From contig WQSZ01000002.1 of the NCBI GenBank assembly GCA_009787645.1, forward strand, positions 1 to 48,715: a stretch of DNA of 48,715 nucleotides, in the 5' to 3' direction. The notes beneath the pieces are model-generated. The model was given only the letters and a program-made list of their open reading frames with translations. It was not told where the DNA came from and did not search any database. Shown piece by piece: positions 3,680-37,648 of the stretch. This stretch comes from Candidatus Fibrimonadales bacterium. Lineage in GTDB: Bacteria > Fibrobacterota > Fibrobacteria > Fibrobacterales > Fibrobacteraceae. Position 1 is the stretch's first letter. Each line of letters begins with the position of its first letter. Both the position numbers and the translations under genes were made by a program.

Positions 3680-3886
3680 ATGGCTTGGACTGTTATTGTA
3701 ATACTTTTGCCCCTTGTTGTTATTGTAGGTGGTATATTGTATTTTAATATTTATTTTCGCAAGCAGGTAAAAAAGGACATTGAGCCTGTGCCTATTATAG
3801 ACCAAGCTTATATTGAAGCGGAAAGAACAAGGCCAGATGATGAGGATTTGGGTGGTTCCGGCAAGTTGGAGGCGAGAAAGCAATGA
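3680..3886 (+). CDS. Small single-TM membrane protein
   Basis: 68 aa with an N-terminal TM helix; its stop overlaps the next start. Confidence 0.6.
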   Translation: MAWTVIVILLPLVVIVGGILYFNIYFRKQVKKDIEPVPIIDQAYIEAERTRPDDEDLGGSGKLEARKQ

Positions 3887-4776
3887 GTGATATGATCGGA
3901 ATGGCAAAAAAAGCCGAAGAGTATTTGGAATCTGCCGGTAAATTGACGGAAGATAGTTTGAGAAATTATATTCCTGCTGAAAACGAAATTCCGGAAAAAT
4001 TGCACAGCGCAATGCGTTATGCACTTTTAATAGGAGGCAAAAGGCTTCGCCCTGCGTTGGCTTTGGCTGCTTATGAGTTTTTTGGAGGAACACCGTCTGA
4101 GTCTATTCGCTTGGCGATGTGTTCTTTGGAAATGCTGCATACATTTTCTCTGATCCACGATGATTTGCCGTGCATGGACGATGATGATTTCCGGCGAGGA
4201 AAACCATCTACACACAAGGTTTATGGAGATGCGACCGCTGTTTTGGCCGGAGATGCTCTTTGCATTTTTGCCTTTGAATTGATAGCTCGCACGGGAAATG
4301 CGGCGGTTGTTGAGGAGCTTGCGCATTCGCTCGGTACAAAAGGTATGATTGGCGGGCAAATTATAGATATTGAATCTGAGGGAAAACACGTTGACTTGGC
4401 AACGGTGGATTATATTCATTATCATAAAACGGCAGCTTTGATAGAGGCTTCGCTGGTGATAGGCGCTTTGCTTGCAAATGCCAAAAAAGAAGATTTAACG
4501 TTGATAAGGGAATTCGGCAAGGGAATCGGGCTTGTTTTTCAAATTGTCGATGATATTTTAGATATAGAAAGTTCCACGGAAACTCTGGGCAAAAAAGTCG
4601 GCTCAGATATTAAAAAGGGAAAAGCTACTTATCCGGCTGTTTTAGGTTTGGATGTTTCAAAGCAAAAAGCTATGGAGCTTTACAACGAGTCCCTTTCGCA
4701 TTTGGAAAAACTTCAAGGCAAAAGCACCGATACTCTGCGCAACATAGCTGCGTTGATCATTGAACGCACGCACTGA
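3883..4776 (+). CDS. ispA: Polyprenyl (farnesyl/geranylgeranyl) diphosphate synthase
   Basis: FARM motif DDLPCMDDDDFRRGKPSTH and SARM motif DDILD. Confidence 0.93.
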   Translation: MSDMIGMAKKAEEYLESAGKLTEDSLRNYIPAENEIPEKLHSAMRYALLIGGKRLRPALALAAYEFFGGTPSESIRLAMCSLEMLHTFSLIHDDLPCMDDDDFRRGKPSTHKVYGDATAVLAGDALCIFAFELIARTGNAAVVEELAHSLGTKGMIGGQIIDIESEGKHVDLATVDYIHYHKTAALIEASLVIGALLANAKKEDLTLIREFGKGIGLVFQIVDDILDIESSTETLGKKVGSDIKKGKATYPAVLGLDVSKQKAMELYNESLSHLEKLQGKSTDTLRNIAALIIERTH

Positions 4777-12504: not shown

Positions 12505-12524
12505 GGGCTGAAAATTTTCAGCCC
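12505..12524. repeat. 20-bp perfect palindrome GGGCTGAAAATTTTCAGCCC
   Basis: Read directly from sequence; intergenic. Confidence 0.9.
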
Positions 12525-32760: not shown

Positions 32761-35112
32761 TTGAAACAAAATAATATCCTTTTAATAGCGGCGTTTGCTT
32801 TTCTTGCGTTGCTCTTGTTTGTGTTTAGCGAATTCGCTTTTAATGATTCAAAGCTCATGCTAAATAGCGATCAGCTTAATGGTATAGGTCCCAGATATAT
32901 CAGAGCTAATGATTTTATTTTACCCGAATGGGAAAACATGCGTTTGGGTGGCATCCCTACCATAGACGCTCTGTTTGGAGACATTTATCACCCGCTTACT
33001 ATGATTTACTTTGTGCCTGGGTTAGATCCCGATAGAGCTACAGGGTTTAAGTTTATTTTTACGATTTGGTGTGCGTTTATCGCTGCCTATATTTTAGCCA
33101 GATATTTAACGGGTAAGTGGCAATGGGCGGCATTGCTCGGATTTTTATACGCTTGCAGCCCTCAATACTTCTCATACATATATGGTGGGCACGATGGTAA
33201 AATGATAGTTTTTGCCGCAGCTCCGTTTGCAATGTATGCTTTAATGAGATTGCTGCGCGAGGGCTCCATAAAGCATGGGATTTATTTTGCGCTTTCTGTT
33301 GTTTGGATGGTGCTGTCTCCGCATTTGCAGGTGGTTTATTTCTTTTTATGGGGTGCAGCGCTTTATACATTATTTGAAGTTTTCTCCAATCCGCTTTCCG
33401 CAAAAATAAGATGCATTCGCATGGGGCTTGCAGTGTTGGCTGTATCTATTGGTCTTGCAATTTCCGCTTTCCAGATAATTCCTCCTTATTTATATACAAC
33501 AACGGAATCTATTAGAGGGAGCGCAGAAAAAACAACCGTAGAACATTCAGCAAGCTGGAGCTTGCATGGTGAAGAACTTGCCGCTATGATTTTACCCGGT
33601 TTTCTGGGAACAGATGTAGAAGAAAAGAATACTTATTGGGGGCAAAATTCCTTTAAGCTAAACGCAGACGGAGCAGGAACTCTTTTAACATTTTTGGCTC
33701 TTTGCGGTTGTTTGTTGCGGAGCAACAGAAAACAGGCTTTATTCTGGTTTTGCGGCTGCGTTTTAACTCTTTCTTATGCTGTGGGTTTACACTCGTTTTT
33801 ATTTTCCGTTTGGTATAATATAATACCCGGTGTTAAAAATTTCCGTGCGCCCAGCATGGCTATTTTCTGGATTCCTCTTGCTTGTTTATTTTTAGCAGCT
33901 CCTGTTCTTAAGAACTTTGAAGAAAATAAAGAAGTCTTTAAAAAAGGTACAATTTTATATGGAATATTACTGGTAGGAATTTTATTTTTCCGCTACGCAT
34001 GGGAAACATTGAACGGCATACCGGTAGCGATATTCATAGCCTTGTTCGGAGCGTATTTCATAAAATTGTCTGAACCGCGATTATCGGGATTAAAGAATTT
34101 CCATGATAAGCTGCGTATTGCGCTTTGGATTCTTCCCTTCTTGCTTCTCGCGAGTTTCTTTTTAAATCCTGTTAGCGGGAACTATTTTAAGCCTGTTAAT
34201 TTTGTAAAAGCTAATGATTTGGTTTCGTATTCGTTCACATCTTTTATAGTATGCGCTGCTGTTGTTGGTTCGGTGTTTTCCAAAAAAATATTGATCTTTG
34301 CGGCGGTTGCGGCATTGGACTTGGCTATAGTAAACCTTCCTTACGTTCAAACCGTTCAAAGAGCAGCTTACTACAACCCAAAGCATGCAGTTGTTCATGC
34401 CATTAAGCAGGATAATCCGAACGACCATGAACGTTCCCGTATTTTTTCTTTAACAAGAAATCCGGCGATTAGCGGCAATAATCTGGCTTCTTATGGGCTT
34501 AGAAATGCTCTTGGTTATCATGACAATGAAATAGCTACATACCGAATTTTCAAGGAATCTTTGCAAAATTCGGCCATGCTTGATTTGATGAATGTAGGTT
34601 ATATAGTTTTTGATGGTGAGCAAGGCACGGGAATTCAAAGAAATCCCGGTGATTTGGGCAGAGCGAAGCTGTATTACCAATGGGAAAACGAAAAAGACAT
34701 AATTACAAGATTGAAAGATGGCGAATTTGATTACAGAAATATTTTGTTATTGGAAAATGCAGCCGCCGTTGGGGCGTATGGCAATACACCCCAACAAGGC
34801 GAAGTTAAAATAATCCATGCAAAAGCGGATAAAATCAAGTTTGAAGTTGAAAGCCTCATTCCCGGCAAATTATTCGTTTCCGAAAATTATCATAAATACT
34901 GGAAAGCAAAAGTTAACGGGGAAAATGCGGAAGTCAGCAGAGCATTCAGCACATTCATGGCAATTGATGTGCCGCAGGGAAAATCCGTTGTGGAATTGCG
35001 TTATAAATCAGAGAGCGTAACGCTTTCGCTTTGGATTGGCGCAGTGGGCATGATTTTGCTTTGCGCAATGATTTTCTTTGCCTGGAAAGAGCAACGCAAT
35101 GTTTTACGATAG
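32761..35112 (+). CDS. Large polytopic membrane protein, YfhO-like
   Basis: Many TM segments; YIYGGHDGKMIVFAAAPFAMYALM; soluble C-terminal region. Confidence 0.65.
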   Translation: MKQNNILLIAAFAFLALLLFVFSEFAFNDSKLMLNSDQLNGIGPRYIRANDFILPEWENMRLGGIPTIDALFGDIYHPLTMIYFVPGLDPDRATGFKFIFTIWCAFIAAYILARYLTGKWQWAALLGFLYACSPQYFSYIYGGHDGKMIVFAAAPFAMYALMRLLREGSIKHGIYFALSVVWMVLSPHLQVVYFFLWGAALYTLFEVFSNPLSAKIRCIRMGLAVLAVSIGLAISAFQIIPPYLYTTTESIRGSAEKTTVEHSASWSLHGEELAAMILPGFLGTDVEEKNTYWGQNSFKLNADGAGTLLTFLALCGCLLRSNRKQALFWFCGCVLTLSYAVGLHSFLFSVWYNIIPGVKNFRAPSMAIFWIPLACLFLAAPVLKNFEENKEVFKKGTILYGILLVGILFFRYAWETLNGIPVAIFIALFGAYFIKLSEPRLSGLKNFHDKLRIALWILPFLLLASFFLNPVSGNYFKPVNFVKANDLVSYSFTSFIVCAAVVGSVFSKKILIFAAVAALDLAIVNLPYVQTVQRAAYYNPKHAVVHAIKQDNPNDHERSRIFSLTRNPAISGNNLASYGLRNALGYHDNEIATYRIFKESLQNSAMLDLMNVGYIVFDGEQGTGIQRNPGDLGRAKLYYQWENEKDIITRLKDGEFDYRNILLLENAAAVGAYGNTPQQGEVKIIHAKADKIKFEVESLIPGKLFVSENYHKYWKAKVNGENAEVSRAFSTFMAIDVPQGKSVVELRYKSESVTLSLWIGAVGMILLCAMIFFAWKEQRNVLR

Positions 35113-35770
35113 TTTTTCAAATCGCAAAAGGAACAGGCTTGGAAGTTTTTTGGTTGAAAAAACTTTTGAGGAATTGGCAAAAATTTCCGCCGAATATGCT
35201 CCCGTGAAAATTTTGGAAATAGGCGTTGGAAAAGGCGTCCTTTACGAAAAACTGAAAAAAGAACTTCCACAAATGGAATACACGGGAATAGAAGCCGGTG
35301 ATGCCATGTATGCAGAGGCAAGGAATAAAGGCATAAATGCAATAAAATGTTTTATTCCGCCGTTTCCGCAAGAACTCGAAAAAGGAAGTTTTGACCTGAT
35401 TATAATGAGCCATATTCTGGAACATTTCATAAATTACAGAGAAGTGCTGGAAGTTTTGAATGGGATAAATCCATTGTTAAAGCCACAAGGAAAACTTTTG
35501 ATTTTTTGCCCCTGCGCATTGGATTACGGCATGGATTTTTTTGATGGTGATTATTCACATTCGTATATAACAACGCAGAACAGAGTTGAAGAATTGCTTT
35601 TGGACTCGGGCTTTCAAGTGATACGGCGTGCTTCTTACAGGTCTTGTTTTAAGAGTTTTAAACTGTTTTTTTATGCGCTTTCCAAAATTATAGGTTGGTG
35701 CGCATTTCTAAATACAAGAACCAGAAGCACTTTCAGAAAAAATCTATTGACATTGGCGGAAAAGATATGA
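35099..35770 (+). CDS. SAM-dependent methyltransferase
   Basis: VKILEIGVGKGVLYEKLKKE, YTGIEAGDAMYAEA, DLIIMSHILEHF. Confidence 0.85.
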   Translation: MFYDSFSNRKRNRLGSFLVEKTFEELAKISAEYAPVKILEIGVGKGVLYEKLKKELPQMEYTGIEAGDAMYAEARNKGINAIKCFIPPFPQELEKGSFDLIIMSHILEHFINYREVLEVLNGINPLLKPQGKLLIFCPCALDYGMDFFDGDYSHSYITTQNRVEELLLDSGFQVIRRASYRSCFKSFKLFFYALSKIIGWCAFLNTRTRSTFRKNLLTLAEKI

Positions 35771-36780
35771 AAATAGCCATAGATGCCAGAATGATAAATA
35801 AAAGCGGCATTGGGATCTATATCAAGCATATAATGGAGAATATAGGTTATGATGTTGTTTTGGATAATTCCAATTTTCCGTACAAAAATTACAGCATAAA
35901 AGAGCAATTGTTTTTTCCGTATAGAAAACTGCGCAGGGAAAAAGTAGATGTTCTGCATGTTCCGCATTTGAATATTCCTATTTTTTATAAAGGCAAGCTT
36001 GTAGTAACCATACACGATTTAACGCATTTAAGGTATCCGCAATTTTTACCGAGCAAATTTCATTACTATTATTTCAAGTTCATGCTTGGAATGGCAACAA
36101 AAAAAGCTTCTAAAATCATAACGGTTTCACACAATACAAAAAAAGATATAATAGATTTTTTTAATACGGAACCGGATAAGATTAAAGTTATACATTCCGG
36201 AGTGGGAAAGGAATTTGTGATCAAGCCAAAAGATGAAGTTTCTTATCTGTACAAAAAATATAACATTTTGCCGGAGAAAAAGATTATTCTATACGTTGGC
36301 AACTTGTTGCCTCATAAAAATGTGAATAGTTTGCTAAAGGCATCTCATTTAATAAAAAAAGATCATGTTTTGGTTTTGGTTGGGAAAAGTTTTAAAGAAC
36401 GGACCGCAAAAGTAGAGACTGATAATTATCAGTCTCTACTTTATGTAGGCGAAGCCAGTCGAGATGAGCTTGTTGATCTTTACAATCTTGCGGATTTGTT
36501 TGTGCTGCCTTCGCTTTACGAGGGTTTTGGTTTTCCGGTTTTGGAAAGCTTTGCATGCGGAACGCCCGTAGCCTGTTCCAACACTTCAAGTTTGCCGGAA
36601 GTCGGAGGTAATTTCGCATTTTATTTTGATCCAAAGGATGAGGCGAATATTGCCGATGTGATAAACATGGCTTTTGAGAGCAAGAGTGATCCGATAGCTT
36701 TGAGAGAATATGCGCTAAAATTTTCCTGGGAAAAAACTGCCGGAGAAACGTTAAATGAAATCAATTCCCTGGCAAATTAA
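35767..36780 (+). CDS. GT4-type glycosyltransferase
   Basis: MKIAIDARMINKSGIGIYI; LYVGNLLPHKN; ADLFVLPSLYEGFGFPVLESFACGTPVACSNTSSLPEVGG. Confidence 0.92.
   Translation: MKIAIDARMINKSGIGIYIKHIMENIGYDVVLDNSNFPYKNYSIKEQLFFPYRKLRREKVDVLHVPHLNIPIFYKGKLVVTIHDLTHLRYPQFLPSKFHYYYFKFMLGMATKKASKIITVSHNTKKDIIDFFNTEPDKIKVIHSGVGKEFVIKPKDEVSYLYKKYNILPEKKIILYVGNLLPHKNVNSLLKASHLIKKDHVLVLVGKSFKERTAKVETDNYQSLLYVGEASRDELVDLYNLADLFVLPSLYEGFGFPVLESFACGTPVACSNTSSLPEVGGNFAFYFDPKDEANIADVINMAFESKSDPIALREYALKFSWEKTAGETLNEINSLAN
36409..36442. repeat. 34-bp perfect palindrome inside the glycosyltransferase ORF
   Basis: AAAGTAGAGACTGATAA|TTATCAGTCTCTACTTT, zero-loop. Confidence 0.97.
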
Positions 36781-37648
36781 ACTGGCTATCAGCATTTTGC
36801 TTTTGGCTTTGGTGGTTTGGAAGTTTCCTGTTTACGAAATTGTTCAACATATAAAAAACGCAAAGATAGGTTGGTTAATATTGGCTTTTGTATTTGGAGA
36901 GCTTATTATTTTAAATCAGGCATTCCGCTGGCATTATCTGTTGATTGTTCCAAAGGAACAAAAACCTAAATTCGGTTCGCTTTTAAAATATACTGCGGTT
37001 GGTTATCTGTTTAACCTGTTTGCACCTGGTGGTGTTGGCGGAGATGTTTATCGTTCCATTGCTTTGGGTAAGGCGCACAATGTTATTGCAAGCAGCGTGG
37101 CTTCTGTTTTGGTTGCCAGAATTTTGGGGCTTGTGGCTTTGTGCTTGTTGTTTTGGATTGCATTGCCGTATTCCGAGCATATTCCGCAGCAGGCAATTTG
37201 GTTTATGGCTGTAGGCACTTCATTTTTAATAATTTTTTGTTTTTGCGTTATTTTCAATCCTTTTAAAAAAGGAAAGCTTGGAGAATTTGCGGAAAAGTTA
37301 AGGGAGTACAAAAAATATCCTTTGCGTTTGGTAGCGGCTATGTTCGGCTCTCTTTTTATGCAGATTTTGGGTGTTTTAATGCAATGGTCCGTGTTCAAAG
37401 CCGTGGATATTTCCGTTCAATGGAGTTTGGTTTTTGTGGTTGTTCCGGTTACAATTATGCTGACAACTATTCCGATTTCCTTCAATGGCATAGGAGTTAG
37501 AGAATGGTCTTTGCTATCCTTAACCGCTTATGCTGTAAATTCCGAGCAATTGCTTGCCTCCGTGCTTTTGGGGTATGCAGTGGTTATTTTGCAAGCAGTA
37601 CAGGGGAGCATTTTTCTACATTTACCACATGATAGAATTCGTGTCTAA
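36755..37648 (+). CDS. Lysylphosphatidylglycerol synthase TM region / UPF0104-type flippase-like membrane protein
   Basis: FRWHYLL...LLKYTAVGYLFNLFAPGGVGGDVYRSIAL; IPISFNGIGVREWSLLSL. Confidence 0.85.
   Translation: MKSIPWQIKLAISILLLALVVWKFPVYEIVQHIKNAKIGWLILAFVFGELIILNQAFRWHYLLIVPKEQKPKFGSLLKYTAVGYLFNLFAPGGVGGDVYRSIALGKAHNVIASSVASVLVARILGLVALCLLFWIALPYSEHIPQQAIWFMAVGTSFLIIFCFCVIFNPFKKGKLGEFAEKLREYKKYPLRLVAAMFGSLFMQILGVLMQWSVFKAVDISVQWSLVFVVVPVTIMLTTIPISFNGIGVREWSLLSLTAYAVNSEQLLASVLLGYAVVILQAVQGSIFLHLPHDRIRV

Follow-up and report, generated by a model that had tools for sequence, protein, structure and literature searches.

We found that a 34-bp palindrome within a glycosyltransferase gene of Candidatus Fibrimonadales is very probably a mobile double-foot REP copy, mobilised by a RAYT transposase, that entered a loop of the encoded protein with partial loss of the resident sequence and was retained in its sole open reading frame. 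The palindrome was identified in a 48,715-nucleotide stretch of contig WQSZ01000002.1 (positions 1 to 48,715, here called the window), and the evidence comes from this window, its own genome assembly, related genomes and orthologous genes.

A perfect palindrome within a glycosyltransferase gene

The palindrome occupies positions 36409-36442; its sequence, AAAGTAGAGACTGATAATTATCAGTCTCTACTTT, equals its own reverse complement without a loop between the arms. As the initial annotation had stated, it lies in frame within a glycosyltransferase open reading frame. No other zero-loop palindrome in the window is as long, the runner-up being a perfect 20-bp palindrome, GGGCTGAAAATTTTCAGCCC, at 12505-12524. 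The same annotation had judged chance occurrence very unlikely, and our calculations agree: from base composition, a 34-bp palindrome is expected 4e-6 times per window and 1.6e-4 times per 1.88 Mb, and the longest palindrome in 200 first-order Markov shuffles measured 24 bp. It had also remarked that the peptide KVETDNYQSL is read from both strands. This is true but trivial, since a perfect palindrome necessarily reads alike on each strand.

The 34 bp comprise a 28-bp double-foot REP core at 36412-36439, GTAGAGACTGATAATTATCAGTCTCTAC, and three outer AAA/TTT pairs. The outer pairs are absent from other copies of the element, whose biological unit is the core of 28 bp, with the layout GTAGAGAC-N12-GTCTCTAC. 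On the forward strand, the core opens with a 5' foot, GTAG (36412-36415), and closes with a second, 3' foot, CTAC (36436-36439), the reverse complement of the first. In known REPs, GTAG is the RAYT guide tetranucleotide (PMC6006769).

The palindrome belongs to a dispersed family

The GTAGAGAC and GTCTCTAC ends had been likened to dispersed palindromic repeats of other bacterial genomes, and we found that they mark such a family both in the same genome and in relatives. Perfect cores of this layout occur 13 times in the 1.88-Mb, 62%-complete assembly, compared with none for the reversed control pattern; 18 copies were found when up to two mismatches were allowed. Among the 60 relatives searched, the family is present in 7 of 11 congeners, with 2-35 copies each (the maximum, 35, in G007), and occurs sporadically outside the genus. 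Copies occupy intergenic sites as well as unrelated genes. Nearly all are 28 bp long, and 68 of the 98 distinct copies are perfectly palindromic. The target-site logo of family copies was weak, being A-rich at +1 and +2 (0.25 and 0.13 bits), and contained no clear target motif. Matches to TIGR02145 (Fib_succ_major) number 52 in this genome and 40-111 in same-genus and same-family relatives, which points to a Fibrobacterota lineage.

The inner 12-mer defines subfamilies. GCAATGCATTGC accounts for the majority of copies in the window's own genome; GGATAATTATCC is found in G001, G002, G003, G007, G008 and G018 and is multi-copy in congeners; and GCGATGCATCGC and AAGGCATGCCTT define further subfamilies. 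The window core belongs to the GGATAATTATCC subfamily, with the paired G-C at core positions 9 and 20 changed to T-A, giving TGATAATTATCA. Of its 28 bases, 26 agree with the family consensus, which is multi-copy and present in several species. We found no second copy of this exact T/A variant in the same genome, in the relatives or in 84,980 species genomes. A paired A/T variant, AGATAATTATCT, is present once in the same genome (contig C162) and also, among the 84,980 species genomes, in Bacteroidetes-type MAGs. Over all copies, departures from the consensus are more often unpaired single changes (37) than paired ones (19), the pattern that copies decaying once inserted should show. The absence of unpaired changes from the window copy suggests that it may be young.

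Two further observations concern the surroundings of the copies. A minority of palindromes (L094, L013, L099, L165 and others) have extra flanking inverted repeats or lie within terminator-like hairpins, which hints that they inserted into hairpins already present or extended them. We rejected the idea of inverted flanks as an invariable product of insertion: three or more extra pairs were found in 13 of 90, a minority only, versus about 4.5 expected. In addition, a virus-classified contig (IMGVR_UViG_3300010882_000159, L291:3775-3802) has an open frame of 470 aa (VETDNYVETDNYPSL) that includes one complete GGATAATTATCC palindrome and half of another; a phage could carry the element between hosts.

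RAYT genes are physically linked to the palindromes

The initial annotation had suggested a mobile element, and this suggestion is strengthened by the physical linkage of a transposase family, RAYT, to the palindromes, which both flank and enter RAYT genes. In the same genome, a RAYT gene (G000:C125, matched region 3724-4266) has one palindrome some 3 bp before and another 32 bp after its matched region; the two, located on the contig at C125:3665-3692 and 4269-4296, are of the GCAATGCATTGC subfamily, unlike the window palindrome. This gene matches NF047646 (REP_Tyr_transpos) with 58.5 bits (E 6.6e-16), under the NCBIfam curated cut-off, and contains the motifs NHFH, WQ and YIFENP, the last departing from YIxNNP by an E where the first N would be. 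It was missed by a PF01797 search and recovered using its own sequence. A first Y1_Tnp search gave 30 loci, mostly ordinary IS200-type, and family palindromes were absent from the vicinity of all of them.

RAYT genes often carry a palindrome in frame within their own open reading frame. In relatives, in-frame REPs lie inside tnpA_REP between HuH and Y (e.g. G010:C67, G007:C110 and G007:C274). The subfamily varies with the gene: GGATAATTATCC in G007:C202, where it is upstream of HuH, AAGGCATGCCTT in G007:C274 and GCAATGCATTGC in G010:C67. RAYTs of other families contain GTAGGGGC-type palindromes. A RAYT matching the window's subfamily was not found in the 62%-complete assembly of its own genome.

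The closest known family is that of double-foot GTAG REPs of the RAYT/TnpA_REP subclass 2.4 type. For this subclass, both double-foot REPs and in-frame REPs within the transposase gene have been described (PMC6006769). Like those elements (RAYT subclass 2.4, or RAYT group 4), the window element has a 5' GTAG, a 3' CTAC and a long hairpin; in both systems, REPs flank tnpA_REP and also interrupt it in frame, in the stretch from HuH to Y; and the RAYTs have the motifs NH[FVI]H, WQ and YIxxNP in common. The present family combines GTAG/CTAC feet, multi-copy dispersal, a RAYT in the genome with flanking cognate REPs and, in relatives, in-frame REPs. It differs from the published double-foot REPs in that many housekeeping genes are also occupied, with empty sites revealed by orthologue alignment. 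In the 24 families of canonical GTAG REPs (PMC3733652), the foot is unpaired and present at one end only, whereas in the window element both feet are fully paired and the DNA has no loop. Intragenic GTAG REPs have been described by Di Nocera et al. 2013 (PMC3733652) and, as here, are kept in frame inside tRNA synthetases, helicases and repair genes. With both intragenic REPs and this type of element already published (PMC6006769, PMC3733652), the window palindrome is not a new kind of element. We found no prior description of double-foot REPs in Fibrobacterota in the literature, and a literature search by sequence letters returned no relevant paper.

The palindrome occupies a variable loop of the glycosyltransferase

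The host gene encodes a GT4-type glycosyltransferase of 337 aa (35767-36780, forward strand; ATG at 35767, stop ending at 36780) with Pfam domains PF13439 and PF00534 (residues 163-317). The palindrome encodes residues 215-224, KVETDNYQSL. On the same strand, the stop of the upstream gene, which has a SAM methyltransferase domain (35078-35770), overlaps the glycosyltransferase start, and the downstream gene, for an LPG_synthase_TM (PF03706) membrane protein (36755-37648), overlaps its 3' end; a frame-breaking insertion would therefore probably be costly. The GGATAATTATCC subfamily has one open frame only, VETDNYxSL, with stops in the other two, and this is the frame of every listed in-gene copy of the subfamily. 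As 28 is not divisible by three, a retained copy would need a compensating change.

No glycosyltransferase orthologue examined contains the palindrome, and the closest has no proto-palindrome at the site. Relative to the three nearest orthologues (G001, 78% protein identity; G003, 75%; G017, 71%), the window gene has a net gain of only 2 residues (+6 nt). At this position, which varies in length across the orthologues, the majority of family-level homologues exceed the window gene by 3 residues. Thus, the kind of event that had been proposed, a mobile palindrome retained as a peptide, stands, but the predicted 9-11 extra residues do not hold for this gene. Given that the closest orthologues are just 2 residues shorter and most homologues 3 longer, the palindrome appears to have displaced, and by alignment replaced, most of the resident loop sequence. 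With a net change of +6 nt rather than +28, no clean insertion is directly readable, the nearest empty-site relatives being about 71-78% identical in protein sequence. Alignment to solved GT4 proteins (5d00) places the site at a helix and loop joining two strands of the C-terminal domain; we relied on this alignment because the single-sequence AlphaFold model had a pLDDT of 35. The site varies in length anyway and is most likely a tolerant surface loop.

In-frame copies occur in conserved genes

The proposal that such palindromes are tolerated as peptide inserts was borne out by in-frame copies in many genes of related species, including essential ones. In the window's own genome, in-frame copies are present in valS, a DUF3516 helicase and a DUF2344 gene (C162). 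Others lie in mnmG and dus of G008, pheT of G010, miaA, priA, nuoG and several Por_Secre-tail proteins of G007, a PHP-like protein of G002 (without a Pfam match and named from sequence), a lipoprotein gene of G001 and G003, and an alpha-mannosidase gene of a Bacteroidetes MAG. A Pfam domain spans the insert in mnmG, dus, miaA, priA, valS, DUF3516 and DUF2344. In the lipoprotein gene, G002 has a shortened remnant where G001 and G003 hold the palindrome. Among paralogous G007 proteins (L137, L139, L140 and L154), the palindrome lies at about the same place within the Por_Secre_tail C-terminal sorting domain.

Empty sites were seen in same-genus orthologues lacking the palindrome. The occupied dus gene has exactly 9 additional residues (+27 nt) compared with four species; priA has 14 more than most orthologues, nuoG and mnmG have 7 and 5 more than palindrome-free orthologues, and DUF2344 has 8 more than a second copy in the same genome. 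For valS, miaA and the helicase, the length change is small or mixed. The comparison shows real insertions, as in dus, alongside cases with compensating loss. The two DUF2344 open reading frames, one with the palindrome and one without (G000:C162 and G000:C118, with 83% identity to the query across the stretch that was searched), may represent a paralogue or a mixed bin.

In pheT, the linker is occupied by a GTAGAGAC palindrome in G010 (L124/L198, C31) and by GTAGGGGC palindromes in G007 (L246, C322) and G008 (L248, C95). Two families have therefore struck this site, and the linker appears to be occupied recurrently and independently. In other species, the variable loops of valS, miaA, priA and pheT contain short tandem repeats, a second type of in-frame insert: (AACTCTC)n coding NSQLSTLNSQLS, and a AATAATGAAGAATTA type in G004 (L211, L254, L243, L242, L244, L222 and L226).

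Origin of the window palindrome

As is assumed for elements of its double-foot type, the palindrome would be mobilised in trans by a RAYT/TnpA_REP (HUH-Y1) transposase, probably via a folded single-stranded hairpin. Folded single-strand transposition is established for IS200/IS605-type enzymes and has been proposed for REPs (PMC6006769, PMC3733652). The window copy would have entered the variable-length helix and loop linking two strands of the C-terminal Rossmann-like domain, and part of the resident sequence would have been lost, the order of insertion and deletion being presumptive. Purifying selection would then leave just the in-frame copies in tolerant loops, where they may be selectively neutral. 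The window copy was presumably kept because it is in the sole open frame (VETDNYxSL) and the site tolerates change in length and sequence, leaving both this gene and the downstream gene that overlaps it readable. Weighing against this explanation are the unique T/A variant, the failure to find a RAYT of the matching subfamily, the below-cut-off score of the RAYT that was found and a net change of 6 rather than 28 nt.

The palindrome might instead be a selected element, such as a hairpin in the mRNA that acts by slowing translation, shielding the message or tuning expression of the overlapping downstream gene. Folded as RNA, it is predicted to form a very stable hairpin (-20.5 kcal/mol, z -8.2), the genes next to the glycosyltransferase overlap it, and the window copy is still perfectly paired when most other diverged copies are unpaired somewhere. 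However, recent insertion accounts equally well for the intact pairing, the identical element type sits in unrelated genes and intergenic sites, and none of the glycosyltransferase orthologues examined has it. A regulatory hairpin is possible but improbable. Still less probable, and strongly disfavoured, is an origin at the site itself without a mobile element, an imperfect inverted repeat having been perfected by hairpin-templated (quasipalindrome) correction. A paired G-C to T-A change like the one that separates the window core from its subfamily consensus is what such correction would yield, and the site has changed little in net length; yet correction would have had to arrive at 26 of the 28 core bases of a consensus that is multi-copy in several species, from a site that in the closest orthologue has no proto-palindrome.

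The initial annotation had also drawn a comparison with Rickettsia palindromic elements (RPEs), selfish inserts without a known transposase. The comparison is apt as an analogy, since these too are palindromic, dispersed and accepted in frame as peptide inserts in proteins. RPE-1 is longer than the 28-bp element. As a family assignment, RPE membership is refuted by the GTAG/CTAC feet and the RAYT linkage, and the length of only 28 bp also speaks against it, so that this reading has very little probability; the intragenic RPE-4 and RPE-6 belong to the CGTC superfamily, which has the CGTC tag rather than GTAG feet and no RAYTs (PMC3733652).

Implications

The mobile double-foot REP reading ties an oddity of one glycosyltransferase gene to a known transposase family. 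REPs were named as extragenic, and here they are common within conserved genes. The added value lies in the occupied and empty orthologous sites in housekeeping genes of a single genus: with orthologues that have and lack the insert, it becomes measurable which protein sites accept a 9-residue insert and how rapidly loops turn over, as well as by what route an element of 28 bp, a length not divisible by three, comes into frame. We tentatively raise the further idea, for which we hold the odds to be rather low, that RAYT-driven palindromes serve in this lineage as recurrent in-frame diversifiers of loops in conserved, even essential proteins, with the same loops struck repeatedly and independently by different families, as in pheT. 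If this is true, the element, besides being junk, would continually supply variation in protein length.
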